Shown: positions 7,670 to 40,182 of the stretch, in pieces
Layout: every line of letters begins with the position of its first letter
How positions within the stretch are numbered: position 1 is the stretch's first letter
Origin: Pseudarthrobacter sp.
Lineage (GTDB): Bacteria > Actinomycetota > Actinomycetes > Actinomycetales > Micrococcaceae
DNA: 64,000 bases
Direction of reading: 5' to 3'
Assembly (NCBI GenBank): GCA_031178005.1
Contig: JAPSJV010000001.1
Location: forward strand, 186,001 to 250,000
Position numbers and translations under genes: made by a program
Notes under the pieces: model-generated
Database searches by the model: none
What the model was told of the DNA's origin: nothing
The model's input: only the letters and a program-made list of their open reading frames with translations

Positions 7670-8146
7670 TTACTTCCGGGTGGCCAGGAAATCGATGGCC
7701 AACTTGTAGCCCTGCACGCCCGCGCCCACGATGACCGCGGTGCACACGGGGGAGAGATAGGAATGGTGCCGGAATTCCTCGCGCCGGTGCACGTTGGTGA
7801 TGTGGACCTCGACGGCGGGGAGTTCCACGGCGGCCAACGCGTCACGCAAGGCCACTGAGGTGTGTGTGTAGGCACCGGCGTTGATGACGATTCCCATCGA
7901 CGTGCCCTTGGCTGCGTGGATGGCGTCGATGAGGTCGCCTTCATGGTTGGACTGGACACAGTCCACGGTGAGGCCGTGAGCGGCGGCAGCCTGGATGGCT
8001 AGCTGCTCAACGTCCGCCAAAGTCGCCGTCCCGTACTTATCCGGCTCGCGGGTGCCCAACAGGTTCAGGTTGGGGCCGTTGATGACCAGGATGGAGCCGC
8101 TGCCGGCTTCGGCAGAGGAGGACGCGGTGGCGGGAGCATCAGTCAT
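7670..8146 (-). CDS. aroQ: Type II 3-dehydroquinate dehydratase
   Basis: [21 protein letters not shown]...[15 protein letters not shown]...[17 protein letters not shown]...[20 protein letters not shown]. Confidence 0.96.
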
Positions 8147-8219
8147 AGGTGCAAATCTATCGGTTGCGCGGCCCGCCGGGCATTCCATGAAGAATGTCCG
8201 GCGGGCCGCGGCGTCCCGG

Positions 8220-10477: not shown

Positions 10478-11824
10478 CTACTCGAAGAGCGCGTTGACCT
10501 GCTCATTCGCTGCAGTCAGGGAACTTGCCGGTGCCTTGCCGGAAATGACCGCGTCCATGGCGGGCTTCATGATGCCGCTGACTTTGGCGGCGTTGTCCGT
10601 AATCGGGAGCATAAAGGTGGTCTTCTCCTCCACGTGCTGGGTGAAGGCGCTGACGTCAACACCCTTCGCGGCAAAGGCCTCGGCGGCCTTGTCCGAGGAA
10701 GTCTTGATGGCGGGGAAAACCACGGCCTTGGACGCTACAACGTCCTGGCAGGCAGCGGAACCGAGGTACTCCACCCACTTGATGGCGGCGTCCTTCTTCT
10801 TGGTGCCGGCCCACACCGAGTCAGCCAGGCCGTTGAACATGGAGGCGTTCTTGCCGTCAGCACCCGTGGGGGTGGGCGCAATCCCGAGGTCCAGGCCCTT
10901 GTAACCCGTGTACTGGCCGATCATCCAGGAACCATGGGAGTTGATGGCGGCTTTGCCGGCGCCGAAGCTGTCTGCGGCGTTGGCGCCCACCGTGGTTTCC
11001 AGCTTGGGCATGTAGCCCTTCTCCGTCAGGCTTGCCCACCAGGCGATGGTGTCCTGGACGCGCTGGTCATCGTAGTTGTAGTGCGTTCCCCATGGGTTCT
11101 TATCGGTGGTGGTCCAACCGGTGGTGGCGGACAGGTAGCTCCACTGGGTCTGTCCGGCGTTTTCGGCATCGGAGTTGGGCAGGCCCAGGCCGTAGACGGC
11201 GACGTTGTCCTTGTCGAAGCCGGGCTCGTCGCCGCGCTTGCCGTTCTTGTCCACTGTGAGGCGGGCGATGGCCTGTTCATACGAGCCGCCGTCTTCCGGG
11301 TTCCAGGTCAGAGAACCCATCTGCTCAGGGGTGAGGCCGGCCTCGGTCGCCATCGTCTTGTTGTAGAAGAGGGCCACGGTGTCCCAGTCCTTGGGCAGAC
11401 CGTAACGCTTGCCGTCCTGGCCCACCCAGAGATCGGCCAGGCCCTCGTTGTACTGCGAAAGGTCAACGTTGTCCTGCGCGACGGCGTCATCCAGGGCCAC
11501 CAGCTGCTTGGTCTTGAGGAAGTCCGGGTACTTGGCGAGGTGGTTGGTGAAGACGTCCGGGGCGGTGCCGGAGGCCATGCCGTTGTTGATCTTGCCCCAG
11601 TAGTCGTCCCAGCCGGTCTGCGTGACCTTGACGGTGATGTCCGGGTTGGCCTTAGTGAAGTCCGCTGCGCATTCCTGGTAAGCGGGCAGCTGGTTGGCGT
11701 CCCAAAGCCAGTAGTTGATCTCGCCCTTGGCCGAATCACCGCCCCCTGTGCTTCCGCCTCCGCAGGCGGTGAGGGCCAGGACTGCTGCTGCGGCGACGGC
11801 GCCGAATGCCTTTTTGTTCATCAT
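10478..11824 (-). CDS. ABC transporter sugar-binding lipoprotein
   Basis: Lipobox VLALTACGGG; type-1 extracellular solute-binding protein; adjacent to two permeases. Confidence 0.93.
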   Translation of the reverse strand: MMNKKAFGAVAAAAVLALTACGGGSTGGGDSAKGEINYWLWDANQLPAYQECAADFTKANPDITVKVTQTGWDDYWGKINNGMASGTAPDVFTNHLAKYPDFLKTKQLVALDDAVAQDNVDLSQYNEGLADLWVGQDGKRYGLPKDWDTVALFYNKTMATEAGLTPEQMGSLTWNPEDGGSYEQAIARLTVDKNGKRGDEPGFDKDNVAVYGLGLPNSDAENAGQTQWSYLSATTGWTTTDKNPWGTHYNYDDQRVQDTIAWWASLTEKGYMPKLETTVGANAADSFGAGKAAINSHGSWMIGQYTGYKGLDLGIAPTPTGADGKNASMFNGLADSVWAGTKKKDAAIKWVEYLGSAACQDVVASKAVVFPAIKTSSDKAAEAFAAKGVDVSAFTQHVEEKTTFMLPITDNAAKVSGIMKPAMDAVISGKAPASSLTAANEQVNALFE

Positions 11825-11878
11825 GATGGTCCTTTCAAGAAACGTGCGACGGTGCTTGTTGAGGGGGTGCAGGAAGTA

Positions 11879-12841
11879 CTACTTGGTGCCGTTGAAGCCG
11901 ATGGAGTTGACGATCTTCTTGCCGAAGATGGCGAAAAGGATCAGGACGGGAGTGGCGGAGACCAGCGTGGCGGCCATGAGGCCTGACCAGTCAGGTGCGC
12001 CCTGGGGTGATTGGGATTTGAAGACGCCCAGCCCGACAGTGAGGACCCGGGATTCTTCGGAGGTTCCCACCAGCAGCGGCCAGAAGTATTCGTTCCACTG
12101 GCCCATGAAGGTCAGGAGGGCCAGGGTGGCGATGGGGGCGGCCGCGTTGGGCATCACGATCTGGAAGAAGATCCGCCAGTGCTTGGCGCCGTCGAGCATT
12201 GCCGCTTCTTCAACTTCACGGGACATGTTCAGGAAGAACTGGCGCATGAAGAAGATGGCGAACGGGGTCATAAACAGATAGGGCAGCACCAGGCCGAGCA
12301 TTGAGTTCAGCAGGCCCAGGTTCTTGATCAGCAGGAAGTTGGGCAGTGCCGTGAAGATCGGCGGGACCAGCATGGTGGCCAGGAACAGCGAGAAGACGGC
12401 GTTGCGGCCCTTCCAGTGCAGCCGCGAGAAGGCGTAAGCCGCCATGGAACTGAAAAACACGGCGCAGGCGGTGGTGATGCTGGAGAACACCAGCGAGTTG
12501 CCCAGGTACTGCCAGAAGTTGATGGAGGCGCCCGAACCGCCGTCGGCAATTGCCTCGGCCGCCGTCTGCAGGCCGAAGACCCGTTTGAAGGCGTTGAGGC
12601 TGAAGTCTGCCGGGAGCAGGCTGGCGGAGTTGGCGGCAAGGGAGCCGTTGGTGGACAGTGCCGTGCGCAGTACCCAGTAGAACGGCAGGATGCTGACGGC
12701 GATTGCCAGGCCCAGCAGGACCCAGGCGATGGTGCGGCGCCAGTTGAACGGACGGGTTCCGCCGGGGTGCCGGCGCAAATCCTGGAGAGGACGACGCCGG
12801 GTGGCCGGTTGTGAAGGCACGGGGGCTTTTGTGGTGGTCAT
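11879..12841 (-). CDS. Carbohydrate ABC transporter permease (MalG-like)
   Basis: Multi-TM with EAAMLDGAKHWRIFFQIVMPNAAAPI (EAA motif). Confidence 0.94.
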   Translation of the reverse strand: MTTTKAPVPSQPATRRRPLQDLRRHPGGTRPFNWRRTIAWVLLGLAIAVSILPFYWVLRTALSTNGSLAANSASLLPADFSLNAFKRVFGLQTAAEAIADGGSGASINFWQYLGNSLVFSSITTACAVFFSSMAAYAFSRLHWKGRNAVFSLFLATMLVPPIFTALPNFLLIKNLGLLNSMLGLVLPYLFMTPFAIFFMRQFFLNMSREVEEAAMLDGAKHWRIFFQIVMPNAAAPIATLALLTFMGQWNEYFWPLLVGTSEESRVLTVGLGVFKSQSPQGAPDWSGLMAATLVSATPVLILFAIFGKKIVNSIGFNGTK

Positions 12842-26674: not shown

Positions 26675-27996
26675 AAAGCGTGCCTCCCGGCCGGCGGCGG
26701 AAGGACATTACGGGCACCGGGTCCGGCAGTCCGCGCCTGGCTGTAGCGGAATCAGGCAGGCCACCCGTTGGCGGCCCCGGCACTAGCGGTAGCTCCCGGC
26801 TGGCAGAACCGGGACGCGGTGGCACCGCCACCATGGATCCCAGTCTTCTCGCAACAGTCCGCGAGTCAGTTATGGCGGGGGAAGGGCCGGTGACTCCCTC
26901 CAAAGTGGCAGCGGCGGTGCAGGCAACAGGGCGGCTGCTGGGAACCGCCGGATCGCTGGCCACGGCCGAACGGCTCAGCGCCGAGCTCAATGGTCTGGGC
27001 CCTCTCCAGGAGTTGACCCGGGACGAAACCGTGACTGACATCTTTGTGAACGCTCCTGACTCGGTTTGGGTAGATCGCGGTTCGGGACTGGAACGTACCG
27101 GCATTGTGTTTGCAGGGGAATCCCATGTGCGTGCCCTCGCCGCCAGGCTGGTCGCGGCGGGAGGACGCAGGCTTGATGACGGCTCGCCGTGCGTGGATGT
27201 CCGGTTGGATGCCGGCTACCGTGTCCACGCCGTCCTGCCGCCTATCTCCACCGCCGGCACGCTGCTTAGCGTAAGGATCCGTCGGGAGCAGGTATTTTCC
27301 CTGGACGAGCTACGGCGTAAAGGGATGTTCGGTGAAGTCATCCAGGACATTCTGCGGTGTCTCATCGAACGAAAGCTGAGCTTCCTGATCAGTGGTGCCA
27401 CCGGTTCGGGCAAAACCACCCTGCTCTCCACACTGCTGGGGCTGTGTCCACCCGGCGAGCGGCTTGTCCTCATTGAAGACGCGGCCGAGCTCAACCCGGT
27501 CCACCCGCACGTTGTAGCGTTGGAGACCCGCCACGGAAACCTCGAAGGCGGGGGAAGCGTAGACCTGGCGGAGCTGGTCAGGCAGGCGTTGCGGATGCGG
27601 CCGGACCGGCTGCTGGTCGGCGAATGCAGGGGTGCCGAGGTCCGGGAACTGCTCGCCGCCATGAATACCGGCCATACCGGCGGCGGCGGAACCATTCACG
27701 CCAATACCGCTACGGCAGTCCCGGCACGCCTCACTGCCCTGGGCGCGTTGGCCGGGATGGACCATACGGCTGTGCGTCTTCAGACGGCCAGCGCCCTGGA
27801 TGCCGTGATCCATGTCGAACGGACTGCACGCGGCCGTCGCCTCAGCTGCATCGGTTCAGTGATGGACCACGACGGCAACCTGGCCGTGGTGCCCGCCGTG
27901 GACATCATTGACGGGGCGCTGCGTATGGGCCCCGCGTGGAGCGCCTTGGCGCTGCGTCTGGGGATGGATCCGGATGTTCTGGGAGTGCACTCATGA
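26671..27996 (+). CDS. tadA: TadA-family secretion ATPase
   Basis: Walker A ISGATGSGKTTLLSTLLGL, VLIEDAAELNP, RPDRLLVGECRGAEVRELLAAMNTGHTGGGGTIHAN. Confidence 0.95.
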   Translation: MKSVPPGRRRKDITGTGSGSPRLAVAESGRPPVGGPGTSGSSRLAEPGRGGTATMDPSLLATVRESVMAGEGPVTPSKVAAAVQATGRLLGTAGSLATAERLSAELNGLGPLQELTRDETVTDIFVNAPDSVWVDRGSGLERTGIVFAGESHVRALAARLVAAGGRRLDDGSPCVDVRLDAGYRVHAVLPPISTAGTLLSVRIRREQVFSLDELRRKGMFGEVIQDILRCLIERKLSFLISGATGSGKTTLLSTLLGLCPPGERLVLIEDAAELNPVHPHVVALETRHGNLEGGGSVDLAELVRQALRMRPDRLLVGECRGAEVRELLAAMNTGHTGGGGTIHANTATAVPARLTALGALAGMDHTAVRLQTASALDAVIHVERTARGRRLSCIGSVMDHDGNLAVVPAVDIIDGALRMGPAWSALALRLGMDPDVLGVHS

Positions 27997-28883
27997 CAGG
28001 GCTCTTCCCGACGCTGCTCACCGGACTGCTGGTGCTGGCCGCTGTCCTCCTGCTGGCGCCCCGGCACAGTGTGACCACACGGCTTTGGCGTTTGCTCGGT
28101 CGCGGCGGGCTGGAAAGTACGCGCCGTCCTCCTTCCGGTTCTCAGGCTACCGGGATTGAACGACGCGGCGGATGGCCCGGCATCATCCCGGCCCTGTCAT
28201 CCCGGATAAGCGTCGTCCGGGCAAGGACCGGGAACGGGCCACAGAATGCGATGACGCTGGCTGTGCAGCAAATGGCAGCCCTCCTCAAGGGCGGCCGCAG
28301 CCAGGGGCGTCTTTGGGAAGAACTGATGCTGGTCCATGCAAGCCCGTCCACCGGTTCTCCATCCGGGGCGCCGGGATTTTTCCGGGCCGGGCAGCGCCCG
28401 GAAACCGGCCGGGTCTTGGGCAGGGCTTCGCTGGACGTGGTGGCCGCGGCGAGGGGAGCCTCAACACTTGGCCTTCCCGTCTCCACAGCGATCAGGAGCG
28501 CTGCGCTCCGGGGGTCCTTTCTGACGGACAGCCGTGAGCGCCGCGTATGGTTCGACGTCGCCGCCTGCCTGGACGTTGCCGACGCCAGCGGCTGCCCGCT
28601 CGCCGATGTCCTCACCCGGTTGGCGGCCCAGCTTGAAGTAGAAGATGATGCCGAGGCCGCCAGGCAAACGGCGCTCGCCGGACCCAAGAGCACCGTAACG
28701 CTCCTGAGTTGGCTGCCGCTGACTGGACTCGGCCTTGGCGTCGCACTGGGTGTGGACCCATTGGCCATGCTGCTGGGCACACCTATCGGCTTCGCTGCAC
28801 TTGTGGCAGGCGTCGTGCTGACGCTTGCTGGACGGCTATGGTCGGCCAGGCTGGTTCGATCCGCGGCCGTGGGTCCGGCATGA
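27993..28883 (+). CDS. TadB-like type II secretion F-family membrane protein
   Basis: TM protein following tadA; T2SSF-like helical domain; ATGA-type overlap with tadA. Confidence 0.82.
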   Translation: MTGLFPTLLTGLLVLAAVLLLAPRHSVTTRLWRLLGRGGLESTRRPPSGSQATGIERRGGWPGIIPALSSRISVVRARTGNGPQNAMTLAVQQMAALLKGGRSQGRLWEELMLVHASPSTGSPSGAPGFFRAGQRPETGRVLGRASLDVVAAARGASTLGLPVSTAIRSAALRGSFLTDSRERRVWFDVAACLDVADASGCPLADVLTRLAAQLEVEDDAEAARQTALAGPKSTVTLLSWLPLTGLGLGVALGVDPLAMLLGTPIGFAALVAGVVLTLAGRLWSARLVRSAAVGPA

Positions 28884-28917
28884 GACCCGCGGGCTGGAGG
28901 AGAAAGGTCATGGCGGC

Positions 28918-29571
28918 ATGGGCTGGCTGATGCCGGAACTGATGATCGGGCTGGTCCTGGCAGCAGCTGCGGTACTCGCGTTCCCGGCTGGTACCGCGCC
29001 TGCACGGAGGCTGCACCGGCTGACCGGGCGCCCGCAGGGGCAGCCTGGCTCCGGGATCTCTGGACCTCGTGGACGCCCGGGTAGAGGGCTGTTTCCGGGT
29101 GCCAAGCGGAAAGAAGAGCCCTACGGCAGCCCGCAGGGATTGCGTGACCCTGCGATGGTGCTGGAGTTGGTAGCGGCAATGCTCGAATCCGGTTCCGGTC
29201 TTGGGCGGGCACTGGACCTGGTAGCTGCGGCTTCCTCTGACCACATAAGGACACCGCTCAGGCCAGTCGTTGCCGCAATGGCTATTGGCGCTGACTGGGA
29301 TACCGCGTGGCAGTCCAGCAGCACACCCCACCCGGACGTCCTGCTGCTCCGGGATGCCCTGGGCTTCGCTGCTTATACCGGTGCGCCATCGGCATCGATC
29401 TTGTATGCACAAGCGGCACGCATCCGACGGGACAGGTTCCGTCAGGCCGAAAAACGTGCTGCATCACTGGGCGTCAAGCTGGTGATCCCGTTGGGGCTGT
29501 GTTCCCTGCCGGCCTTTATATGCCTTGGAGTGGTTCCTGTACTGCTAGCCCTGGTGCCATCCGGGGGCTGA
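28918..29571 (+). CDS. TadC-like type II secretion F-family membrane protein
   Basis: MVLELVAAMLESGSGLGRALDLVAAAS...FRQAEKRAASLGVKLVIPLGLCSLPAFICLGVVPVLLAL. Confidence 0.87.
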   Translation: MGWLMPELMIGLVLAAAAVLAFPAGTAPARRLHRLTGRPQGQPGSGISGPRGRPGRGLFPGAKRKEEPYGSPQGLRDPAMVLELVAAMLESGSGLGRALDLVAAASSDHIRTPLRPVVAAMAIGADWDTAWQSSSTPHPDVLLLRDALGFAAYTGAPSASILYAQAARIRRDRFRQAEKRAASLGVKLVIPLGLCSLPAFICLGVVPVLLALVPSGG

Positions 29572-29710
29572 ACTACCCCGCACCGGTCCTCCACAACGGC
29601 GGATTTGGCCAGGTTATCCACTTGGCAGAATCCGCAGCTTACGGAGGTCCGTCCGGGCGGGAAGAGTCGGACTTACCCGGTAAAACCGCCGGTCAACGAA
29701 AGGAAAAGCA

Positions 29711-30091
29711 ATGTCAGCACAACCTACAGCGCCCGCTGGAACCACGCCGGCACGGGCTGGCCGTGCGGCTCAGGCTGCCGCCCTTGAAACGGTGGGGAAC
29801 GGTCCGCTTCCCGACGAAGGTCTGGCAGAGGTCATCGAGCTCTACCCGGTCCCTCAGGACGACTTCGACCTCCTGGACTTCGATCCGGGCGTTGAAGCCG
29901 GTTTTCCTGGTGGTGCTGCCCAAGACCGGACCAAGCCAACATGGCGCAGGAGCAACCGACTGGCCATCTTGCGGCTCAAGCTCAAGTACTTTGGACGGCT
30001 GCGGCTGATGGCTTCGGAGGCAGGCATGGCCACGGCCGAATATGCCATCGCCACCTTCATAGCAGTCCCGCTGGGTCGTAAGTTGTGCTAG
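29711..30091 (+). pseudogene. 5' fragment of DUF4244-type small pilin-like gene, interrupted by the integrated element
   Basis: ...LRLMASEAGMATAEYAIATF then element-derived IAVPLGRKLC*. The missing C-terminal TM half lies at 39174..39284. Confidence 0.9.
30050..30077. other. attL-like junction: GCCACCTT core plus P' arm GTCCCGCTGGGTC
   Basis: Core 30050..30057; arm 30065..30077, the exact reverse complement of 39160..39172. Confidence 0.85.
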
Positions 30092-30285
30092 CTGCGTCCG
30101 AGCAGTCGGGAAGGGTCAACGAAGACGGAGTAGCCGCTCAACTGTTCTTGGTCATCGAGTTCGATCGGCAATGGGCTGGTGAGATCAGCGTTCGACATCT
30201 CGGCCACTTGGACGAACGCTTTCAGGTCAGCCAGCGTCACTTCGGTGGTCAGTTCCAGGGTGATCTTCACGGAGAGGTTAGTCAT
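30088..30285 (-). CDS. Small hypothetical protein (65 aa)
   Basis: MTNLSVKITLELTTEVTLADLKAFVQVAEMSNADLTSPLPIELDDQEQLSGYSVFVDPSRLLGRS; stop is 10 bp from the att arm. Confidence 0.6.
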   Translation of the reverse strand: MTNLSVKITLELTTEVTLADLKAFVQVAEMSNADLTSPLPIELDDQEQLSGYSVFVDPSRLLGRS

Positions 30286-30314
30286 GGCCTCAGTATTGCA
30301 GGCTGAGCAGACAG

Positions 30315-30340
30315 GTTGCGCGGCACTCAAACCTAGTGGT
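30315..30340. repeat. 26-bp imperfect direct repeat, copy 1
   Basis: GTTGCGCGGCACTCAAACCTAGTGGT; matches 33155..33180 at 23/26 positions. Confidence 0.8.
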
Positions 30341-30592
30341 CCCATTGATTTGAAAGCCAGGGCACCTAGCCCGGTCAGGCCAGCCGCAAGGGTCCGTCTC
30401 CGGTCAAAGTCCCCGCCAGTTGCTTTCCGGCAGTCGAAGTTCCCCGCCAGCTGAGGAACCAACGCACCGGCAGATGAGGACCCGCAAGGGCAAGTCCGCC
30501 AAAGGGAGCGAAGGTCAAGGCCCGCAAGTCCTTTCGAGCCGTAGAACGGACGCACCGCGTCCAACCATCTACGCTCTCGAAAGGAGCACCCA

Positions 30593-31765
30593 ATGTTTGA
30601 CGACGCAACAATCGACAACCTGGCCCAGGCCCGCCTCATCCTCGGGGGAGCCATAAAGAGTGGCCGTCCGCTCACCCCCGAGCAACAGCTCATTGTGGAC
30701 AACGCCAAGAGCATGGGCGAAGACGTGGCCCGGAGGCTGGAGCGCGAGCAGCGCGGAAGTGAACTGCTCAAGGCCATCGGCGGTGGCCCCGCGCCGGACC
30801 TCGTGCGGAGTCCGAACGGCGGCTACTACGAGGATTACAGCGGTGCCAACAGCGGTCAGGTCGAGTACCTGGACTTCGGCTCCAAGGCGTTTGGCCGGAA
30901 GATTGCCGAGTCCATCAAGCCTGCCGGATCGAAAGCACTGATCACCACTGGTTCGCAGATCGTGGATACCCCTTTGATCGTCGCCAACCCGATGACTCTG
31001 GCAAGGCCGCTACAGAGCTTCCTGGAAGCCCTGCCGGTAGTGCGACGGGCTGCGGTCTACTCAATTCTTCGGCAGGTCACGCGAACTCCCAATGCCGGTG
31101 TTGTCGCCCCAGGCGCAACCAAGCCTGTTTCGGCAATGACCCTGCAGAGCTTCGAGAAGCGGCTCAAGATCGTCGCCACCCTCTCGGAGCCGGTGAACCG
31201 CTACGACCTGGAAGACTTCACCAACCTTGGTTTGTTCGTCCAGTCCGAGCTGCAGTACGCAATCCAGCTCGAAATCGAGGACCAGGTCCTGAACGGCACC
31301 GGCACCGGCGAGAACTTCGAAGGTCTCGCCAACACCTCCGGCATCCAGCTCTACACGGCACCCGCTGGCCAGGTCGATGACCTGGTCTCAATCCGCAAGG
31401 CGCTGTCGATCTTCGACAACAGCGGCGAGACGGCCAACGTCGTGATCCTCAACCCGACCGACTGGGAAGGAATCGTCACCAAGCGCAACAGCTCCGGTGC
31501 ATTCGACCTCGGAACGGCAGTCAATGAAGAGACCCGGAGGGTATGGGGTAAGCCAGTAGCCCTATCCGGACTGGTACCCAGTAATACGGCATGGGTATTG
31601 GGGGAGGGGTCCGCCAACATCAGTACAGACGGACGGACGCACTTGGACTGGGACGCTTCAACCGGCTTCGCAACCAACACGCTGCAGGCTCGTGTAGAGA
31701 CGCGGGCGGAAGTGGACGTGGTTCGCCCGTCCGCAATCGTGAAGGCGACGTTCGTCGACGCCTAA
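30593..31765 (+). CDS. HK97-fold phage major capsid protein
   Basis: Typical MCP body (SEPVNRYDLEDFTNLGLFVQSELQYAIQLEIEDQVLNGTGTGENFEGLANTSGI...VVILNPTDWEGIVTKRN...VWGKPVALSGLVPSNTAWVLGEG) preceded by a ~100-aa charged N-terminal segment. Confidence 0.92.
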   Translation: MFDDATIDNLAQARLILGGAIKSGRPLTPEQQLIVDNAKSMGEDVARRLEREQRGSELLKAIGGGPAPDLVRSPNGGYYEDYSGANSGQVEYLDFGSKAFGRKIAESIKPAGSKALITTGSQIVDTPLIVANPMTLARPLQSFLEALPVVRRAAVYSILRQVTRTPNAGVVAPGATKPVSAMTLQSFEKRLKIVATLSEPVNRYDLEDFTNLGLFVQSELQYAIQLEIEDQVLNGTGTGENFEGLANTSGIQLYTAPAGQVDDLVSIRKALSIFDNSGETANVVILNPTDWEGIVTKRNSSGAFDLGTAVNEETRRVWGKPVALSGLVPSNTAWVLGEGSANISTDGRTHLDWDASTGFATNTLQARVETRAEVDVVRPSAIVKATFVDA

Positions 31766-31895
31766 GCAAGGAGTGGGTGGGGCCTTATGGTTCCGCTCAT
31801 GGAGTCAACCGGGGTTTTCTCATTCTTTCACCCGGAAGGCCGCGAGAGTTAGGGTTCCTTCACCTCAAAGACCGACCTGCTCCACCACAGGATGG

Positions 31896-31925
31896 CCCCG
31901 GTATCCGACCCAATCGGTACCGGGG
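31896..31925. other. Strong hairpin downstream of the capsid gene
   Basis: CCCCGGTATCCGA-CCCAA-TCGGTACCGGGG: 12-bp stem with a single bulged T. Confidence 0.75.
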
Positions 31926-32113
31926 TCAGTCTGTATATAAAGGGCATTGAAGCCTTGGCCGCTGGACCAGTAGAGACAGGGTTACCTGATAAGTGTCCTC
32001 CCCCCGTCCGAAGAATAGGGGGATCATACGCGTGTTCGTATGCGCGTGAGGGGCTATAGAACGGCTGTTTTATTTCTCTCGTCAATGTCAGGCCTCTGTG
32101 GAATGCTTGGCTC

Positions 32114-32692
32114 ATGACTCAAATCGAAGACGCTTTGGCGAAAGCCACCGAACTAACAAATGCACAACGCGTGAAAACAGAAGCAGCACTTGATGTGTTC
32201 GCTCCTAAAATGGGCGAGGCGCTCGGGCGGTGGGCTTCAGACGGAGTGGAGCAGCACCTGACTCAACGTCCCCATTTGGTGACTAAAATTGAGGACGATT
32301 CAGAGCTGTCACGGATAAAGCGGGAACTCAACGAGTTGCTGGCAACCTGGCCCGGAAAAGTGAAGGCTTCTTTGCTGAATCTGGGTCTAATGTCTGAGAA
32401 TCTACAGAGTAAGTGGACGGCTGGCCTGCTGGGGATTATCTATTCAGCTACAAATGATTTGACCCGTGAAGCCGAACAATTCTTTGCCGAAGCCTTTGGC
32501 GAATACCCGAAACTGAGCCTCAAACGACCATCAGATGGGGACTTTCCGCCCAGCGTTGGGAATATAGTGCAGGGGGCCTGGGAAGACTTTGCGCACGAGC
32601 ACTCAAACCTAATGGAGATGGCCGAAGAGCAGCGCAAGTGGGCTAGGAAAGTTAGTGGACAGGAAGCAGCATCGCGGTGGGGTCAGGCCTAG
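32114..32692 (+). CDS. Hypothetical protein (192 aa), satellite accessory gene
   Basis: Helical charged protein MTQIEDALAKATELTNAQRVKTEAALDVFAPKMGEALGRW...; more AT-rich than neighbours; no family recognised. Confidence 0.65.
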   Translation: MTQIEDALAKATELTNAQRVKTEAALDVFAPKMGEALGRWASDGVEQHLTQRPHLVTKIEDDSELSRIKRELNELLATWPGKVKASLLNLGLMSENLQSKWTAGLLGIIYSATNDLTREAEQFFAEAFGEYPKLSLKRPSDGDFPPSVGNIVQGAWEDFAHEHSNLMEMAEEQRKWARKVSGQEAASRWGQA

Positions 32693-32813
32693 CTCCCGAC
32701 TGAGGGTAGTTGTAAGGCGGCTAAACCTCGTGCTCCAATTTTCGGGACGAGGTCTTCAGCCCTCAGCCCGTTGTGCGGCCTCGTCACTTCCAGTTGCATT
32801 GGGCTGCAGCTAC

Positions 32814-32847
32814 AGAAGACCCTCGGTGGAAACGCCGGGGGTCTTCT
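32814..32847. terminator. 15-bp stem with GAAA tetraloop, terminator-like
   Basis: AGAAGACCCTCGGTG-GAAA-CGCCGGGGGTCTTCT; all 15 positions pair allowing G-U. Confidence 0.65.
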
Positions 32848-33083
32848 GCTGTTCCTGGCCTCGCGTCGGCCCGTCTTGGTACTTCCCGTGACCTCGCGTG
32901 GCTGGCAGGTCTACGAATACCGGCGCGGTCCTTCCGATTCAAGGGAGGGCCGTCCGGAGCTTGGCTGGCCACCCTCACCGGCAGGGCATCGGGCGTGCGC
33001 ACGCGAGATCCGGTGGTTGTGTGGCTGGCAAAGCCAGTGTTCTGATGGTCCAGGGGATTGGTACCCCCCATCCTTGGAGGATT

Positions 33084-33111
33084 CGAGGCCCTTGCTCCGG
33101 CAGGGGCCTCG
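33084..33111. other. 12-bp stem with UNCG-type (TCCG) tetraloop
   Basis: CGAGGCCCTTGC-TCCG-GCAGGGGCCTCG; one G-U pair. Confidence 0.65.
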
Positions 33112-33154
33112 GTCGTGCCAGAACCGGTCTTCCACGCTGAGAAGCACCCCGGTA

Positions 33155-33180
33155 GTTGCGCCGAACCCAAACCTAGTGGT
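33155..33180. repeat. 26-bp imperfect direct repeat, copy 2
   Basis: GTTGCGCCGAACCCAAACCTAGTGGT; see 30315..30340. Confidence 0.8.
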
Positions 33181-33367
33181 GAAATGGGTCTCGACGGGCG
33201 ATCCCCTCACTACGGTGGGCAGGAGCCAAGGCTTTACAAGCTGAACTAGAAAAGGCGTCGGTACCGGGGAAGCTCCGGGGGTTTCGCAATACCTGCGAAC
33301 TATCCCCGTTGAGCGCAAGATGCCCGGGGGGACCCCGCAGGAGTTTCCTCCAAGGAGACCACCCCTG

Positions 33368-33475
33368 ATGGTTACCATCGAAGAGCGCCGGATTCCGGAC
33401 GCCAATTTCCAACGCCTGCTCATCCTGCTGTTCGGCAGCGCCCAGGCTTCACAGACCCCTGGGGAGGTGAAGTAA
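33368..33475 (+). CDS. Small hypothetical protein (35 aa)
   Basis: MVTIEERRIPDANFQRLLILLFGSAQASQTPGEVK preceded by an AAGGAG-type RBS; stop adjoins the next ATG (TAAATG). Confidence 0.5.
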   Translation: MVTIEERRIPDANFQRLLILLFGSAQASQTPGEVK

Positions 33476-33700
33476 ATGGGCACGAACTACACCATCCCAG
33501 CCGAGCAGCGAGCCAAGATTGCCGCCAGCGTCAAGAAAGCTAACGCCGACAACCCTGAGTTGAGCCGTGCAAAATCGCAGCGCCAGCGGGGCAAGCCGTC
33601 CCGGGGTGGTCACACCACCTCACACACGAAGCGCGGAGTCTCTAAGCCCGAGACGTGCGTCTTCTGCCGTGAAGAGCAGGAAAGTGGCCAGCATGGTTAA
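33476..33700 (+). CDS. Small basic hypothetical protein (74 aa) with C-X2-C
   Basis: MGTNYTIPAEQRAKIAASVKKANADNPELSRAKSQRQRGKPSRGGHTTSHTKRGVSKPETCVFCREEQESGQHG; directly precedes prim-pol. Confidence 0.6.
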   Translation: MGTNYTIPAEQRAKIAASVKKANADNPELSRAKSQRQRGKPSRGGHTTSHTKRGVSKPETCVFCREEQESGQHG

Positions 33701-35567
33701 GGTCAGCCAGAAGGGCGACGCCAAGGAACGGGTCAGGCAGGCCGCGCTCGCCGCAGCCCAGGCAGGCTACCCAGTATTCCCAATCCGCCTCTGGCGGGAT
33801 GAAGAGGGGAAGCTGCAGAAGACACCGCTTGTGAAGTGGACCCAGGAATCCACCACGGACCCGGATCACCTGCTCAAAATCTGGTCATTCAAGGCCAACG
33901 CCTACGGCATCGACACCGGCAAGGCAGGGTTGGCGCTGGTGGACCTGGACACTCACAACGGCCAGGACGGACCCGGGCAGTGGGCAAAGCTGCTGCCGGA
34001 CGCTCCGCAAACGTTGACCGTCCAGACTGCCTCCGGTGGCCAGCACGTCTATTACCGGGACCCGTCCGGCGAAATCCGCAACAGCGCCAGTGTCCTGGCT
34101 GACGGCGTCGATATTCGGGGCAATGGCGGTCTCGTTGTCGGCCCAGGGTCCGAGTTCGACGGCCTGACCTACCGGACGAGCGACGGAGGACCGCTTCCGC
34201 CAATCGAGGAACTCCCGGAGGCCCCAGAGGCCCTGCGGGCACTTCTGAAGTCACGGGCAACGGCACCGAAGCCCGAGAAGGCCGCTTCTGGTCTGCCGCT
34301 GGGGGAGACGGGCCAGGGCACGGCGCTGGTCCGCGAACTGTTGGCGGTCGTCAACGCCGAAGGCGGCACCCGGAACCACCAGCTCAACAAATCCGCGTTC
34401 GCACTCGGGCAGATCGTCGCGGGAGGTGGGCTTAGTGAATCGGTGGTCCGGGGAGCGCTGGAAGAAGCAGGCCGACAGGCCGGACTGGATGAGTTCGAAA
34501 TCCCCAAGTCGATCGATTCGGGCCTGCTCTCCGGAGCAGACAGCCCGCGCAACATCGAGCGCACGCCGGAAGACCTGTTCACCGGCCTTGACCTTGCCGA
34601 CTGGTTCAGCACGGATCATCCGGCACCGCCTCGGTTCGGACTGGGAAACCTGATCTATGAGGGATCGGTCCACATCATCGCCGGGGAACCCGCCTCGGGT
34701 AAATCGGTGCTCTGCTACCAGTGGGCCATCGATTCGATGAGGGCAGGCAAACGGGCCATCCTCCTGGACGAGGAAGCCGGACCGCGAGACGCACTCGGCA
34801 AGCTCGTGGCCCTCGGTGCCAGCACCGAGCTGCTGAAAGACCGGCTCACCTATCTCGCGCCGAGCGGACGGAACCTGGACAAGCTCACCGCCCAATTCCA
34901 CGCGCTGTTTTCCTCCGGCGATGTCGGCGTGGTGGTGGTGGACAGCCTGGGTGCAGCGCTGGCGATCGCCGGGAGGCCCGAGAACGACAACGGGGAGGTG
35001 GGCAGCTTCCTTACCTCGGTGGTTCTGCCGCTGGCTGAGAAGTACGGCGTTACGGTCCTGCTGATCGACCACAAGACGAAGGGGGACACCGGACGGTACA
35101 GCCGGGGAGCGTCGATCAAACTCCAGCTCACGGCGGTGCAGCTCGCGGTAGTAGCCACCCAACCCTTTAGCAAGTCGAAGGACGGGGTGATGACCATCGA
35201 GTGCAACAAGAACCGTTTCGGTGACTACGCCGAGGGGGACCGCTGGAAAGTGGATGTGATGACCGGCAACGGCAAGATCCTGCTGGACGTGGAGGAATAC
35301 ACCCAGGCAGACGAGACCGAGGCATTCATCAAGTCCGAACTGGTGCAGGCAGTGGCTGGCCACTACCGCAGCGTCCACCCGAGGACGTTCGCGCTCCGCA
35401 AGCTGCACAAGGTTGAGGCGATCAAACAGCATGGCTCGAAGCAGAAGATCGAGACCGTCGTCAAGTGGCTCGTGGCCCAGGGCGTACTGACCAGGAGCGG
35501 TCCCAGCAGCCCCTTGCAGTGGGTGTCCGGACAGACCGTCCTGGACCTGTCCGAGGTGTCCTCGTGA
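33693..35567 (+). CDS. Bifunctional primase/polymerase with RepA-like AAA ATPase domain
   Basis: N-terminal prim-pol (YGIDTGKAGLALVDLDTHNG, TASGGQHVYYRDP); C-terminal Walker A IIAGEPASGKSVLCYQWAID, VVVVDSLGAALAIAG. Start trimmed to MVKVSQKGD. Confidence 0.88.
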   Translation: MVKVSQKGDAKERVRQAALAAAQAGYPVFPIRLWRDEEGKLQKTPLVKWTQESTTDPDHLLKIWSFKANAYGIDTGKAGLALVDLDTHNGQDGPGQWAKLLPDAPQTLTVQTASGGQHVYYRDPSGEIRNSASVLADGVDIRGNGGLVVGPGSEFDGLTYRTSDGGPLPPIEELPEAPEALRALLKSRATAPKPEKAASGLPLGETGQGTALVRELLAVVNAEGGTRNHQLNKSAFALGQIVAGGGLSESVVRGALEEAGRQAGLDEFEIPKSIDSGLLSGADSPRNIERTPEDLFTGLDLADWFSTDHPAPPRFGLGNLIYEGSVHIIAGEPASGKSVLCYQWAIDSMRAGKRAILLDEEAGPRDALGKLVALGASTELLKDRLTYLAPSGRNLDKLTAQFHALFSSGDVGVVVVDSLGAALAIAGRPENDNGEVGSFLTSVVLPLAEKYGVTVLLIDHKTKGDTGRYSRGASIKLQLTAVQLAVVATQPFSKSKDGVMTIECNKNRFGDYAEGDRWKVDVMTGNGKILLDVEEYTQADETEAFIKSELVQAVAGHYRSVHPRTFALRKLHKVEAIKQHGSKQKIETVVKWLVAQGVLTRSGPSSPLQWVSGQTVLDLSEVSS

Positions 35568-35580
35568 AGGCCCCGAAAAC

Positions 35581-35770
35581 GTCCCGGGACGCCCGCCTCT
35601 CGGGACATATCTGCCGGGACGGTCTCGGACGCCGAACGTCCCGGTCCTGCCGGGACGTTTTCACCCCGTCCTTCCGGGCCGGAAGCCCCAGCGTCCCGAA
35701 CGTCCCGAAGCGTCCCGGGACGGTCTCCCCTGTACCGTCCCGACGTCCCGGACCCTTTAGGGGCCGGGAC
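35581..35770. repeat. Cluster of GTCCCG/CGGGAC motifs, candidate replication-initiator binding region
   Basis: 7 GTCCCG and 6 CGGGAC occurrences counted in ~190 bp immediately after prim-pol, in the non-coding gap 35568..35884. Confidence 0.7.
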
Positions 35771-35884
35771 GGTAGGACGGGGATACCCCGGAGCGGGTGC
35801 GTCCTGGTGGTTGCGGAGTCTGTCGGACTCCGTTGCCTCGGGGGCGCATCCGCGACTCCGGACCACACCGCGAAGGAATTAGAA

Positions 35885-36076
35885 ATGGGCAACAAAGCCA
35901 AGAACAAGCGGACGGCTCGTGAGATGGAGCTTCGTCAGCGACTCAACGGTGTCCGCAGCCGACGCCAACAGGCGGAAGCCATCGGACAAGCCCTGGACGC
36001 TCTGCGCTCAGGTCTCGAATGGGAAGACGTCGAAATCACTACCCGCATGGAAAGCGAAGGAATTAGTCATGTCTGA
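35885..36076 (+). CDS. Small hypothetical protein (63 aa)
   Basis: MGNKAKNKRTAREMELRQRLNGVRSRRQQAEAIGQALDALRSGLEWEDVEITTRMESEGISHV; overlaps the next start. Confidence 0.6.
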   Translation: MGNKAKNKRTAREMELRQRLNGVRSRRQQAEAIGQALDALRSGLEWEDVEITTRMESEGISHV

Positions 36077-36350
36077 CAAGGAAACTGCAGTCGGGTTCGT
36101 GTCGTGGTTCTTGTCCCAGCCCCGGGGCAGCGTCGCTAGCAGAGTGCGCCTGCTGCTCCACGCGGACCTCGCAGCGGCCAAGGTGGCTTCCGTTCCCACC
36201 AGCCTGCGAGAGGTCAAGGAATGGGCCAAGGATCGCCCGGAGTCGCCACCCGAGCTGCACGAGTGGCTGGCCCAATCCATCCAGGAATGGAAGCAGTGGC
36301 TGAACGTTACGCCTGCCTCAACGTCAGACGGAACGGGTGAATCAAAGTGA
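36069..36350 (+). CDS. Small hypothetical protein (93 aa)
   Basis: MSDKETAVGFVSWFLSQPRGSVASRVRLLLHADLAAAKVAS...; overlaps upstream and downstream small ORFs. Confidence 0.6.
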   Translation: MSDKETAVGFVSWFLSQPRGSVASRVRLLLHADLAAAKVASVPTSLREVKEWAKDRPESPPELHEWLAQSIQEWKQWLNVTPASTSDGTGESK

Positions 36351-36607
36351 GCCGGATTGAATTTGACCTGACCATCAAGGACCACACCAGGGCCGCACGG
36401 TTGATGCTGGCGACCGTCAAGGGTGACTCGGTGGCGGTGGCTGAAGTGATGGACGAAGTGACCCGAGAACAGGAGGGCGGTGCCGTGAATGCTCTGATTC
36501 TGGCCTTGACCGATTTCAGTGTTCGAGTGGTCGGCGCGGTAACCGGTGATAAGGCCCAGGAGCAGTTGGAGGCAACATTGCTGTCGCTTCTGGACGACGA
36601 GGACTAA
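36347..36607 (+). CDS. Small hypothetical protein (86 aa)
   Basis: GTG start, 4-bp overlap with the upstream ORF; MSRIEFDLTIKDHTRAARLMLATVKGDSVAVAEVMDEV... Confidence 0.6.
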   Translation: MSRIEFDLTIKDHTRAARLMLATVKGDSVAVAEVMDEVTREQEGGAVNALILALTDFSVRVVGAVTGDKAQEQLEATLLSLLDDED

Positions 36608-36634
36608 TCGAGGTTGTAGGAGGGTGGGGCTGGT

Positions 36635-36823
36635 TCACATCAGGCCCACCCTCCGCTTCAACCAGCGATCAAATCGCTTCGGAAATGAGCGGATGAATTT
36701 GATGACCATGAAGCCCAGGGCGGTTGCAACAAGCACCACCAAAGGCCCAACAATGTTTGCGCCGAGCGGCGTCTGGCTCCAGGCGAAGAAGCCGTTTATG
36801 AGTGCGAAGAGGTCCATAGCCAA
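36635..36823 (-). CDS. Small single-TM protein (62 aa)
   Basis: MAMDLFALINGFFAWSQTPLGANIVGPLVVLVATALGFMVIKFIRSFPKRFDRWLKRRVGLM: TM helix plus basic tail. Confidence 0.5.
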   Translation of the reverse strand: MAMDLFALINGFFAWSQTPLGANIVGPLVVLVATALGFMVIKFIRSFPKRFDRWLKRRVGLM

Positions 36824-36873
36824 GAACGTAGCCCGAAGACTAGGGATTCACCTAGGCCGGGGCACTCAAGACC

Positions 36874-37030
36874 TGTGGATAACCTGTGGATTAAGTGTGC
36901 ATATTTGTGCGCAACCTGTTAGCTGGCCTGTGGATAACAAAATCACTTTCGGTCTCGCCCTGCTCTCACCTGCGGAAACGCTTCAGACACAGTGTGTGTT
37001 AAATAGTTTTTCCACAGAGCTTCATCCACA
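36874..37030. promoter_or_regulatory. DnaA-box-like cluster, candidate origin
   Basis: TGTGGATAA (36874..36882), TGTGGATTA (36885..36893), TGTGGATAA (36929..36937), TTTTCCACA (37008..37016), TCATCCACA (37022..37030) in a non-coding AT-richer stretch. Confidence 0.65.
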
Positions 37031-37143
37031 GCTTGAAACACGCGCTCGGGCGTGGCCTGTGGGTACTTGTGAGTAGAAATTTGAGCGTGTTTTGATGGAA
37101 TTTTTTCCTTGACAGCCAGTCAAATAACCACGAGGAGCCAACA

Positions 37144-37551
37144 ATGACGAAGAACCAGACCCCCAAGGCCGAGACAGCCACCGTGCAGTGCACCTGCGGC
37201 TGTGGCGAGGCCACTCAGAGCGCTAAGAGCCTCTACCGCCCAGGTCACGACGCCCGCCACGCTGGGCTGGTGGCCCGGGACCTCGTCGCTTCCCGAGTCC
37301 AAGGCCATGAACGCCAGTACAGCGAGGAAGACCTCGGCTCCGACGCTCTCCGGGCGAAGGCCCTCAAAATGGCCGACCGGCTCGCCGCCAAGGCCCAGGC
37401 GCAGGCTGACCGCGCAGCCGCCAAGGGCAGCAAGTGGACCGAGGCCGAACCGGTGAAGCGGGGCCGCTGGACCTATCCCACCCGGACCAACGGCAAGATC
37501 ACCCAGGTTAACGACCGGCGCGACGGCTCAGGCACCTGGGCCGCACTCTAA
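37144..37551 (+). CDS. Small protein with Cys/His cluster upstream of the integrase
   Basis: MTKNQTPKAETATVQCTCGCGEATQSAKSLYRPGHDARHAGLVARDLVA...; CxCGCG...GHDARH putative metal-binding motif. Confidence 0.65.
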   Translation: MTKNQTPKAETATVQCTCGCGEATQSAKSLYRPGHDARHAGLVARDLVASRVQGHERQYSEEDLGSDALRAKALKMADRLAAKAQAQADRAAAKGSKWTEAEPVKRGRWTYPTRTNGKITQVNDRRDGSGTWAAL

Positions 37552-37603
37552 CCAACATCAGCCAGCCCCGGTGACAGCCGGGGCGACGCTGTAGGAGAAC
37601 GCA

Positions 37604-39157
37604 ATGAAGGCAGCATGGTACGGGCGAGTCAGCTCCGCAGGCCAAGTGGATCACGGCAGTTCCCTGCAAACCCAGCAGGAGCAATGCGAAGCCACCATCA
37701 AGGCCCGGGGCTGGACCCAGGTAGGCAAGTTCGTGGACGAAGGTCTCAGCGGGGCCAAGGACGACCGCCCGCGCTGGCAGGCGCTCCTGGCCGCATGCCG
37801 ATCCGGCGAAATCCAAGCCGTGGTCGTGGCGTCCCTGGACCGAATGAGCCGCAACGCCGCGCACGCCATCACCATCACCTCGGAGCTGGAACGGCTCGGG
37901 GTAACCCTGGTCGTCATCCGGGAACAGATTGATCTCTCCACGCCCTCAGGCCGGATGATGCGCACCATGTTGGCAGGCGTGGCCGAGATGGAACGGGACC
38001 TCATCCGCGAGCGCTCCGTCGCCGGTCAGCGAGCCAAAGTCGCCCGCGCTGCATGGCCGGGTGGTCAGCCCAGCTACGGCTGGCGGTTGGACGGCAAGGG
38101 CAAAGACGCCCGACCCGTCCCGGACCCTGCGGAGCGTGATGCACTGGCGTACATGGTGAAGTCCGCACTCGCAGGCCACACCACTGGGGACATCGCCCGT
38201 GAACTGAACCGCCAGGGCATTCCCACGCGGTCTGGTGCCGACTGGTCCCACACCGTCATCCGACGCATGCTCCGGAACCCCGCACTCACCACCGGTGAGC
38301 ATCGATGGGGCTTTATCGGCAAGATGGGCACCCGTTACACCAAGACCCAAACCGACGCCCGCACAGGCAAGCCCAGGCACGGCGATCCGGTGATTCTTGA
38401 ACTCCCTGAGCCACCCCTGGACCAAGCCACCTTCGACGCGCTGCAACAGGTCCTGGACTCCGCTCCCAGGTCCGGTCTGCGGCAGGACAACCAGCAGCGG
38501 CAATGGCTCTCAACCCGGATCCACGGCACGTGTGGCAGGCACTATCTCGGCGTCCTGGTCTTGGAGCGCAACGGCATCCGCCGACCCATCTACCGTCCCG
38601 AGTGCAAGCGCAGGCCAAAGGACGGCCAGCCACCATGCACCTGCCGACAGATCGACGTAGCCAAACTTGATGCCGCAGTCTGGGCCGAAGTCGTCGGCGT
38701 ACTGGGGGACCGTGAGCGGTTGCTGAAGCTGGCCGCAGAGTGGACCCGGCAGGGGGTCACGAGCGAAGCTGACAGCCGCGAGCTGGAGCGGCTGGGGGAG
38801 CAGGCGGGGAAGCTCGCCCGCGCCATCGAGCGGGCCACGGACGAGGCATTCATGGCCGACGATCCGGAGAGCCTGCTACTACGGGTTGCCAAGTACCGCA
38901 CCCAGCTCGCGGACGTAAAGACCAAGCTGGAGGCGCTGCAGACGGCAGGCCCCGGCGCACGTGGGAACGCCCGACAGCTCACCGAACTGGCCGAACTCGC
39001 TGACCGGGCAGCGGAGCGGCTGCAGCACTTGACGGAGGCCGAACGGCTGGAACTGGCGGAGTTGCTGGATCTACGGGTGGAGGTCTCCGGGCCAATGGTG
39101 GGTGGCCTGCCCGAATCGGTGACCGTTCGCGGGGTCCTGGACCCTCGGATGGAGTAG
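37604..39157 (+). CDS. Large serine recombinase (site-specific integrase)
   Basis: Resolvase domain AAWYGRVSSAGQVDHGSSLQTQQEQC...VVASLDRMSRNAAHA, recombinase domain, zinc ribbon CGRHYLGVLVLERNGIRRPIYRPECKRRPKDGQPPCTC, coiled-coil C-terminus. Confidence 0.95.
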   Translation: MKAAWYGRVSSAGQVDHGSSLQTQQEQCEATIKARGWTQVGKFVDEGLSGAKDDRPRWQALLAACRSGEIQAVVVASLDRMSRNAAHAITITSELERLGVTLVVIREQIDLSTPSGRMMRTMLAGVAEMERDLIRERSVAGQRAKVARAAWPGGQPSYGWRLDGKGKDARPVPDPAERDALAYMVKSALAGHTTGDIARELNRQGIPTRSGADWSHTVIRRMLRNPALTTGEHRWGFIGKMGTRYTKTQTDARTGKPRHGDPVILELPEPPLDQATFDALQQVLDSAPRSGLRQDNQQRQWLSTRIHGTCGRHYLGVLVLERNGIRRPIYRPECKRRPKDGQPPCTCRQIDVAKLDAAVWAEVVGVLGDRERLLKLAAEWTRQGVTSEADSRELERLGEQAGKLARAIERATDEAFMADDPESLLLRVAKYRTQLADVKTKLEALQTAGPGARGNARQLTELAELADRAAERLQHLTEAERLELAELLDLRVEVSGPMVGGLPESVTVRGVLDPRME

Positions 39158-39159
39158 CA

Positions 39160-39181
39160 GACCCAGCGGGACAGCCACCTT
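39160..39181. other. attR-like junction: P arm GACCCAGCGGGAC plus GCCACCTT core
   Basis: Arm 39160..39172, core 39174..39181; followed by the DUF4244 3' end. Confidence 0.85.
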
Positions 39182-39284
39182 GGCTGCAGTCGGGTTCGCC
39201 GGTGTGCTGGTGTTCCTGCTCCGCAGCGAGGAAGTACGCGGCTTCCTGCTCAACCTCATCCGGACGGCTCTGGCCCTTCCATGA
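39174..39284 (+). pseudogene. 3' fragment of the DUF4244-type gene (C-terminal TM half)
   Basis: GCC ACC TTG GCT GCA GTC GGG ... reads ATLAAVGFAGVLVFLLRSEEVRGFLLNLIRTALALP*; continues the frame of 29711..30057. Confidence 0.9.
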
Positions 39285-39817
39285 GCCAGCGGGATGGCGG
39301 GAAGGTCAACGGCAGGGGCCTCCGGCTTCGGCTTCAGAACGGCCGGGGAAGGGCCGTCCCGAAGCGCGAAGCACGGGGACAGGAACTCCTGGACTCTGGG
39401 GCCGGAGGCGGCAAGGCTTCAGTGGCGGGATCTTGTGGACGACCCCGTGGACTCTGTGGATCCCGTGGGGCCGTGACAGCCGAATTTGCCGTTGTCCTTC
39501 CCGCAGTCCTGTTCCTGCTGGCTCTGCTCTTGGCCGGTGCCGCCGCCGGAGTGACCCAGCTTCGGTTGGAGGGGGCAGCACGCGCCGGTGCCCGCGAGCT
39601 GGTGCGAGGCGAAGACCCCGGAATGGTGACAGAAACTGTCCAAAGGCTTGCCGGTACAACAGCCGCCACAGCCGTTTCCTCAGACGGAAGCTGGTCTACC
39701 GTGACAGTCTCGGGCCGTGCCGGTGGTCCCTTGGGAGGTTTGGTCCCCTGGACACTGACGGCAACAGCGACGGCCAGGACTGAGGCAGCGTCACTGTCTT
39801 GGCAGCCCGCGGGGTGA
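39281..39817 (+). CDS. TadE-like pseudopilin-family protein
   Basis: GAVTAEFAVVLPAVLFLLALLLAGAAAGVTQLRLEGAARAGARE; ATG overlaps the DUF4244 stop (ATGA). Confidence 0.85.
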   Translation: MSQRDGGKVNGRGLRLRLQNGRGRAVPKREARGQELLDSGAGGGKASVAGSCGRPRGLCGSRGAVTAEFAVVLPAVLFLLALLLAGAAAGVTQLRLEGAARAGARELVRGEDPGMVTETVQRLAGTTAATAVSSDGSWSTVTVSGRAGGPLGGLVPWTLTATATARTEAASLSWQPAG

Positions 39818-40182
39818 TTCAGTTGAAGCCAAGCAACCGCGAGAGGGGCTCAGGCACAATTCTTGCCGCCGGACTGGGGATGGTCCTGATCCTGCTCCTG
39901 TCGATGCTGCTGGTGTTGGCCCAGGCTTCGGTCATGGCAGGAAGGGCGGCCGCAGCGGCAGACCTTGCCGCACTGGCCGCGGCGGACGCGTGGCGCGGGC
40001 TTACTTCCGGCGAGCCATGTGCCGTGGCCGGGGAAATCGCGGCAAGACACCAGGCACAGGTAGTTGAGTGCAGCACCATGCCCGACCTCTCAGTGGAAGT
40101 CCGGGTCCAGCTCAACACCCCAGCCGTTGTGGGCCCGGCGGCCGCCTCGTCCAGGGCAGGGCCGCCACCTGGATCGGAGTAA
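39799..40182 (+). CDS. TadE/TadG-like protein of the secretion/helicase neighbourhood
   Basis: RGSGTILAAGLGMVLILLLSMLLVLAQASVMAGRAAAAADLAALAAADAW. Confidence 0.8.
   Translation: MAARGVIQLKPSNRERGSGTILAAGLGMVLILLLSMLLVLAQASVMAGRAAAAADLAALAAADAWRGLTSGEPCAVAGEIAARHQAQVVECSTMPDLSVEVRVQLNTPAVVGPAAASSRAGPPPGSE

Follow-up and report, generated by a model that had tools for sequence, protein, structure and literature searches.

What can one shell protein do in a mobile element in which no other gene for a phage particle is recognised? The question is raised by a 9,124-bp mobile element (30058-39181) in an Arthrobacter-like host, which lies within the 64,000-nucleotide stretch of DNA analysed here, referred to below as the window. 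We conclude, with a probability of roughly 70%, that this is an actinomycete phage satellite in integrated form, whose major capsid protein (MCP) enters the head assembly of a helper phage; its gene content and the family to which its MCP belongs indicate that it probably spreads by dressing itself in helper-phage parts. The interesting parts of this picture are the dedicated clade of lone MCPs and the divergent delta domain of the protein.

Boundaries and gene content of the element

The element splits the DUF4244 gene of a Tad-pilus locus. Its junctions, which an earlier note on this DNA had called precise, are exact to the base: the same 8-bp core stands at both ends (Table 1), and joining the flanks gives an intact DUF4244 protein with its frame restored (PF14029, E 3e-19), the restored gene sitting between genes of T2SSF type (TadB/TadC-like) and TadE type. 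In the excised form two inverted-repeat arms flank the core to make a dyad-symmetric attP, and this predicted arm-core-arm layout is as expected for a large serine integrase. The site match is kept in 144 of the 149 other sampled genomes of the host's genus (145 of 150 with the host), and most of these 144 matches run across the junction, so the uninterrupted DUF4244 gene is the normal state. The element thus has an integrase and att sites of its own, as is asked of a satellite.

Table 1. Features of the element and its ends, with positions in the window
Feature	Positions	Strand	Evidence or remark
attL core GCCACCTT	30050-30057		inside DUF4244 gene; same 8 bp at right end
Left half of attP dyad (inverted-repeat arm)	30062-30077		15/16 complementary to 39160-39175
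Small ORF, 65 aa	30088-30285	-	accessory gene in variable left-end slot; no Pfam/PHROG/PADLOC match
HK97-fold MCP, 390 aa	30593-31765	+	PF05065, E 7.7e-19
Conserved non-coding stretch 3' of MCP gene	31766-32004		~70% identity to L002
Orphan ORF, 192 aa	32114-32692	+	no relative in 398 family genomes; missing from L002
Conserved non-coding region 5' of replication genes, ~770 bp	32706-33475		partial alignment to L002
Short ORF (74 aa) that overlaps the replication gene	33476-33700	+	67% identity over 60 residues in L002; dN/dS 0.35
Prim-Pol/AAA_25 (RepA/KaiC-like) replication protein	33693-35567	+	PF09250, E 1e-28; PF13481, E 2e-14
Three short overlapping ORFs (63, 93, 86 aa), variable	35885-36607	+	no family match
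135-aa protein with phage homologues	37144-37551	+	phrog_5390, E 1.7e-33; 90% identity in L002, dN/dS 0.11
Large serine integrase, 517 aa	37604-39157	+	Resolvase + Recombinase + Zn-ribbon, E 6e-42; PHROG integrase, E 6e-97
Right half of attP dyad	39160-39175		16-bp arm pairing with 30062-30077
attR core GCCACCTT	39174-39181		second copy of the 8-bp core

Three genes listed in the earlier note, those for an MCP, a prim-pol/RepA-like ATPase and a large serine recombinase, are all real by profile matches; among the corrections to its gene list, the minus-strand gene probably has 65 codons and the replication gene, with a frame open from 33567, has a better start at the ATG at 33693. Apart from the 135-aa protein of phage type, the remaining genes are small ORFs without a family match. 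Profile searches of the element with Pfam, PHROGs and NCBIfam, on which the absence of structural genes rests, gave no significant match to a portal, terminase, protease, head-tail/connector or tail gene, as had been claimed from reading alone, so that of a particle gene set only the MCP was found, an incompleteness typical of what is termed a satellite. Nor did profile searches of the element recognise a repressor, HTH regulator or small terminase, and a diverged packaging gene among the small ORFs could have escaped them. There was also no match between the element and Rfam or defence models.

The stretch between the capsid and replication genes had been described as ORFans, which holds for part of it. 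The 192-aa ORF is indeed an orphan, and GC dips to 52% where it lies; its structure model, mainly helical with a mean confidence of 47, is too poor to interpret. It is probably recent cargo and, together with the left-end minus-strand gene, in whose place the sister element L002 carries an unrelated 288-aa minus-strand gene, it probably represents exchangeable cargo. The part at 32706-33475 is non-coding and partly conserved, with a conserved stem at 32813-32848 and a second at 33084-33111. It is a possible candidate for a replication origin or a packaging/regulatory region; iteron-like repeats were looked for in it and none were found, and it had no match in phage records. Further to the right, the replication gene is separated from the small ORFs by a GC-rich stretch (35568-35880) with several inverted repeats (CGTCCCGGGACG-type), which is 80% identical in L002 though apparently non-coding. 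The 93-aa ORF beyond it is 60% identical in L002.

The surroundings of the element (27936-40182 of the window) form a Tad-type pilus/secretion locus (TadB/C-like, DUF4244, TadE-like) beside an MrfA/HRQ1-type helicase gene. The Tad/DUF4244 locus also houses unrelated lone-MCP elements of the family, e.g. L002 and L037, and is a recurrent integration site for elements of this kind. Five further lone-MCP elements (L034, L036, L038, L046 and L059) lie near a Tad-type locus.

A conserved shell domain behind a divergent delta domain

The MCP consists of an N-terminal delta-like helical domain (approximately residues 1-65), a linker and a shell domain. A profile of the lone-MCP clade aligns to residues 11-382 of HK97 gp5 (3qpr), delta domain included, with an E value of 2e-51. 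Foldseek matches the structure model to the HK97 and phiXacJX1 capsids, with encapsulins also coming up at lower scores; the model has a mean confidence of 52, adequate only for the delta helices and for fold assignment, and its confident part is the two N-terminal helices. By alignment and model, the delta domain, a built-in scaffold, is retained in the MCP of the element.

The earlier note had suggested looking for the same gene order at the same locus in related genomes, and such an element, of the same type, at the same site and in the same order, was found in Arthrobacter sp. 9AX (L002). The replication proteins of the two are 90% and the integrases 84% identical. Nothing in the element is better conserved than the shell part of the MCP (residues 96-390), with 95% identity, a dN of 0.04 and a dS of 0.57, whereas residues 1-95 are 41% identical, with a dN of 0.74. 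At the DNA level, the 5' leader of the MCP gene is about 78% identical, the first 100 codons 44-51% and the shell-domain DNA 87%, so that the divergent delta stretch is bounded on both sides by conserved DNA. Other pairs of lone MCPs show the same tendency (e.g. 87% for the shell vs 45% for the delta domain). Two close pairs of phage MCPs are without such a contrast (90/80 and 86/85), and more distant pairs from complete phages have a divergent N-terminal domain too, in a milder form; because these distant pairs also show it to some degree, we regard the contrast as suggestive.

In the HK97 prohead, it is chiefly through the scaffold domain that the shell touches the portal (PMC10275583). That a domain with this role changes fast suggests adaptation to a partner supplied by another genome, and the divergent delta domain may thus be the part that adapts the MCP to a helper. 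If it is indeed the helper-matching part, comparison of the window with L002 would show how a satellite capsid fits its helper. Neither a separate, long-lived clade of lone MCPs nor the contrast between delta and shell domains was found described in the open-licence literature searched.

The helper itself did not come into view. Neither a portal gene nor a helper prophage was seen in the 69%-complete assembly of the host or in the genome of the strain with L002. The MCP is 25-28% identical to the best MCPs of Arthrobacter, Microbacterium and Curtobacterium phages. No close relative of it was present in viral contigs or phage records; its one match among viral contigs was to a complete-phage-like contig (30%), other lone MCPs gave distant matches or none, and the Prim-Pol protein of the window had no match there. 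Also, no DNA common to the element and phages was found that could serve as a clue to the cos or pac site of a helper. The lack of a helper and of close relatives in viral records was counted against the satellite explanation, as was the lack of a recognisable repressor or small terminase in the element.

Known satellites and the possible use of the capsid protein

The earlier note had treated a lone MCP as exceptional among capsid-carrying satellites. This did not stand, since capsid-like genes that lack the other head genes are known in SaPIbov5, PmCI172 and EcCICFT073 (PMC6893505), and mycobacterial islands with an integrase and an MCP, including phiRv1 and phiRv2, have been proposed as candidate PICIs (PMC10654092; gene lists in PMC3986857). 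With these precedents the element belongs to an already known sort of satellite. The mycobacterial candidates are, like the element, integrated, about 9-11 kb long and defined by integration machinery plus an MCP, a definition that the element fits except that its host is not a Mycobacterium; phiRv1 and some others share with it a serine integrase. One of them, phiBN42_1, is composed of integrase, excisionase, primase, protease and MCP (PMC10654092; PMC3986857), and several have a gene for a protease, portal, terminase or scaffold, whereas the element yielded no match to any of these.

Other satellites are set apart by the extent of their head modules. The cf-PICIs, which borrow nothing but tails, encode their own MCP, protease, portal, connectors and terminases, and the Streptomyces satellites MulchRoom and MiniFlayer have terminase, portal and scaffold genes without replication genes (PMC10690885). 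The element shares an MCP of its own with the cf-PICIs and, having the MCP alone, is not one of them; like MulchRoom and MiniFlayer it has an actinomycete host and its own capsid gene, but it is the reverse of these two in that replication genes are present and terminase, portal and scaffold genes were not detected. With P4-like satellites, which form helper-dependent particles, it has in common a replication protein of its own with primase function; P4 carries Sid and not an MCP, and the element presumably contains no P4 genes. It has the primase/replication initiator expected of PICIs (Prim-Pol + AAA_25). A divergently transcribed Stl/AlpA-type regulator was not found beside its integrase, which lies at the far right on the same strand as the rest, and the element is therefore not a PICI in the strict sense.

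How such an element might use a single capsid gene can be sketched from these parts. On infection by, or induction of, a helper phage, the integrase would excise the element and the Prim-Pol/AAA protein would replicate it. The satellite MCP would then join head assembly with the portal, protease, terminase and tail of the helper, all particle parts except the MCP being borrowed and the delta domain acting as its helper-adapting part. The resulting particles would hold the small satellite genome and spoil heads of the helper.

Whether the MCP would replace some capsomers or build the whole shell is a choice between two about equally likely forms of this scheme, neither of which reaches even odds. 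In the first, proposed tentatively, the satellite MCP would take the place of part of the helper's capsomers and so redirect head size. The direct precedent is SaPIbov5, whose capsid homologue Ccm shares 24% identity with the helper MCP and by itself redirects phi12 heads, entering the helper shell only as pentamers and changing its shape, and loses its delta domain in the particle though the satellite has no protease (PMC8569155). Capsid-like proteins in PmCI172 and EcCICFT073 point the same way (PMC6893505). Like SaPIbov5, the element has one HK97-fold capsid homologue with a delta domain and neither protease nor portal of its own, so that the lone homologue expected of a Ccm-like redirector is present; the low identity of Ccm to its helper MCP is comparable to the 25-28% seen here, and co-assembly is thus possible. 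SaPIbov5 differs in its Firmicute host and its known helper and cos site. Its integrase is of the tyrosine type, whereas the element has a large serine integrase, a Prim-Pol/AAA protein and an MCP of full length. This last difference (390 aa against 355 aa in the shortened Ccm) tells against partial replacement.

The second form, in which the satellite MCP would make a complete, perhaps small, head and take portal, protease, terminase and tail from the helper, is put forward with similar reserve. A full-length MCP that keeps its delta domain and is related throughout to gp5, combined with the fact that HK97-type MCPs such as gp5 need no separate scaffold, makes a complete satellite shell possible, and HK97 proheads without a portal exist (PMC10275583). 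The shell domain is, as noted, what the element conserves best, and the distance from known phage MCPs speaks against free mixing. However, Ccm, at a similar identity to its helper MCP, does mix with it and forms no shells alone (PMC8569155), and portal docking would require a fit between the delta domain of the satellite MCP and the portal of the helper. A bolder extension, which we think unlikely to hold in full, is that an old, dedicated actinomycete satellite-capsid lineage builds full shells from its one gene, takes the rest from helpers and switches helper by exchange of the delta domain on a lattice that hardly changes.

Very improbable, by comparison with either form of the satellite scheme, is a capsid with a role outside DNA packaging, such as an encapsulin-like compartment or a defence trigger or decoy on a mobile element. 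Encapsulins share the fold and appear, with lower scores, in the fold search, and two small plasmids also carry lone MCPs; however, the delta domain is retained here while encapsulins are not known to have one, phage capsids come out as the closest matches by both sequence and fold, and no cargo gene or defence-model match was found.

A clade of lone capsid proteins in Actinomycetes

Relatives of the MCP occur in 33 of the 398 genomes of the family. A portal or protease gene stood beside the MCP only with more distant relatives; in genomes with closer ones the portal, judged with one portal family (PF04860), was absent or located elsewhere in the genome. The 114 genes around 24 lone MCPs include primases, AAA ATPases/helicases, D5_N proteins, HTH and WhiB regulators, HNH nucleases, restriction proteins and one small-terminase match, and the 25 commonest of their 31 Pfam families contain no portal, TerL, protease or tail. 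PHROGs comparison of neighbour genes covers the 25 commonest of 113 families, and rarer structural matches are possible.

In the MCP tree, 23 chromosomal lone MCPs and two plasmid MCPs form one group (support 100/99), separate from the MCPs of phages and complete prophages, with two changes of label between lone and head-module vs 14 in shuffles. L064 is classed as lone on its locus, which has an integrase and no portal, the portal of that genome being on another contig. In a class-wide sample the same type of lone MCP was also present outside this family of actinomycetes: the eight highest-ranking places are without a nearby portal and have a tyrosine or serine integrase within about 6 kb, and MCPs inside complete prophages come lower in the list. 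From these sequences, the lone MCPs are an old, long-lived and widespread clade carried only by stripped-down elements.

The least probable reading of all, a prophage remnant stripped of everything but its MCP, has in its favour the small size of the element and the existence of decayed copies elsewhere (G292 and the second G341 copy carry stops), and was rejected because the frames are intact and under purifying selection (against L002, the MCP has a dN/dS of 0.19, the integrase one of 0.18 and the replication protein one of 0.11), the gene order is kept in L002, and a deep lone-MCP clade would require the identical loss repeatedly. A decayed MCP without homologues in a like architecture, which the earlier note had named as the counter-case to its proposal, was not what we encountered; its central description, a satellite-like mobile element with a lone intact HK97-type MCP, is borne out by the intact frames, by L002 and by the many portal-less relatives elsewhere.

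Actinobacterial lone capsid genes have so far been listed as candidate PICIs or prophage remnants. A separate and diverse MCP clade under purifying selection argues that having the MCP as sole particle gene is a stable strategy, and the same reasoning may bear on elements of the phiRv1/phiRv2 type.

A second, small and separate lone group (L055, L061 and L063) falls within the phage MCPs, which suggests at least two origins of the lone state. The two plasmid members of the main clade belong to small plasmids of actinobacteria, namely pWTY27 and a plasmid of Rhodococcus pyridinivorans. On the first, a Streptomyces plasmid (L068), the lone MCP (10642-12102) is accompanied by the conjugative genes traA/traB, a Prim-Pol gene and a recombinase. 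The second (L067, NZ_CP096036, positions 1526-2143 and 7805-8971; 13.6 kb) contains repeated protein accessions and has the appearance of two tandem copies of a lone-MCP element of about 6.8 kb with a tyrosine-type integrase, which may reflect either a duplication made in assembly or a satellite excised as a circular dimer.
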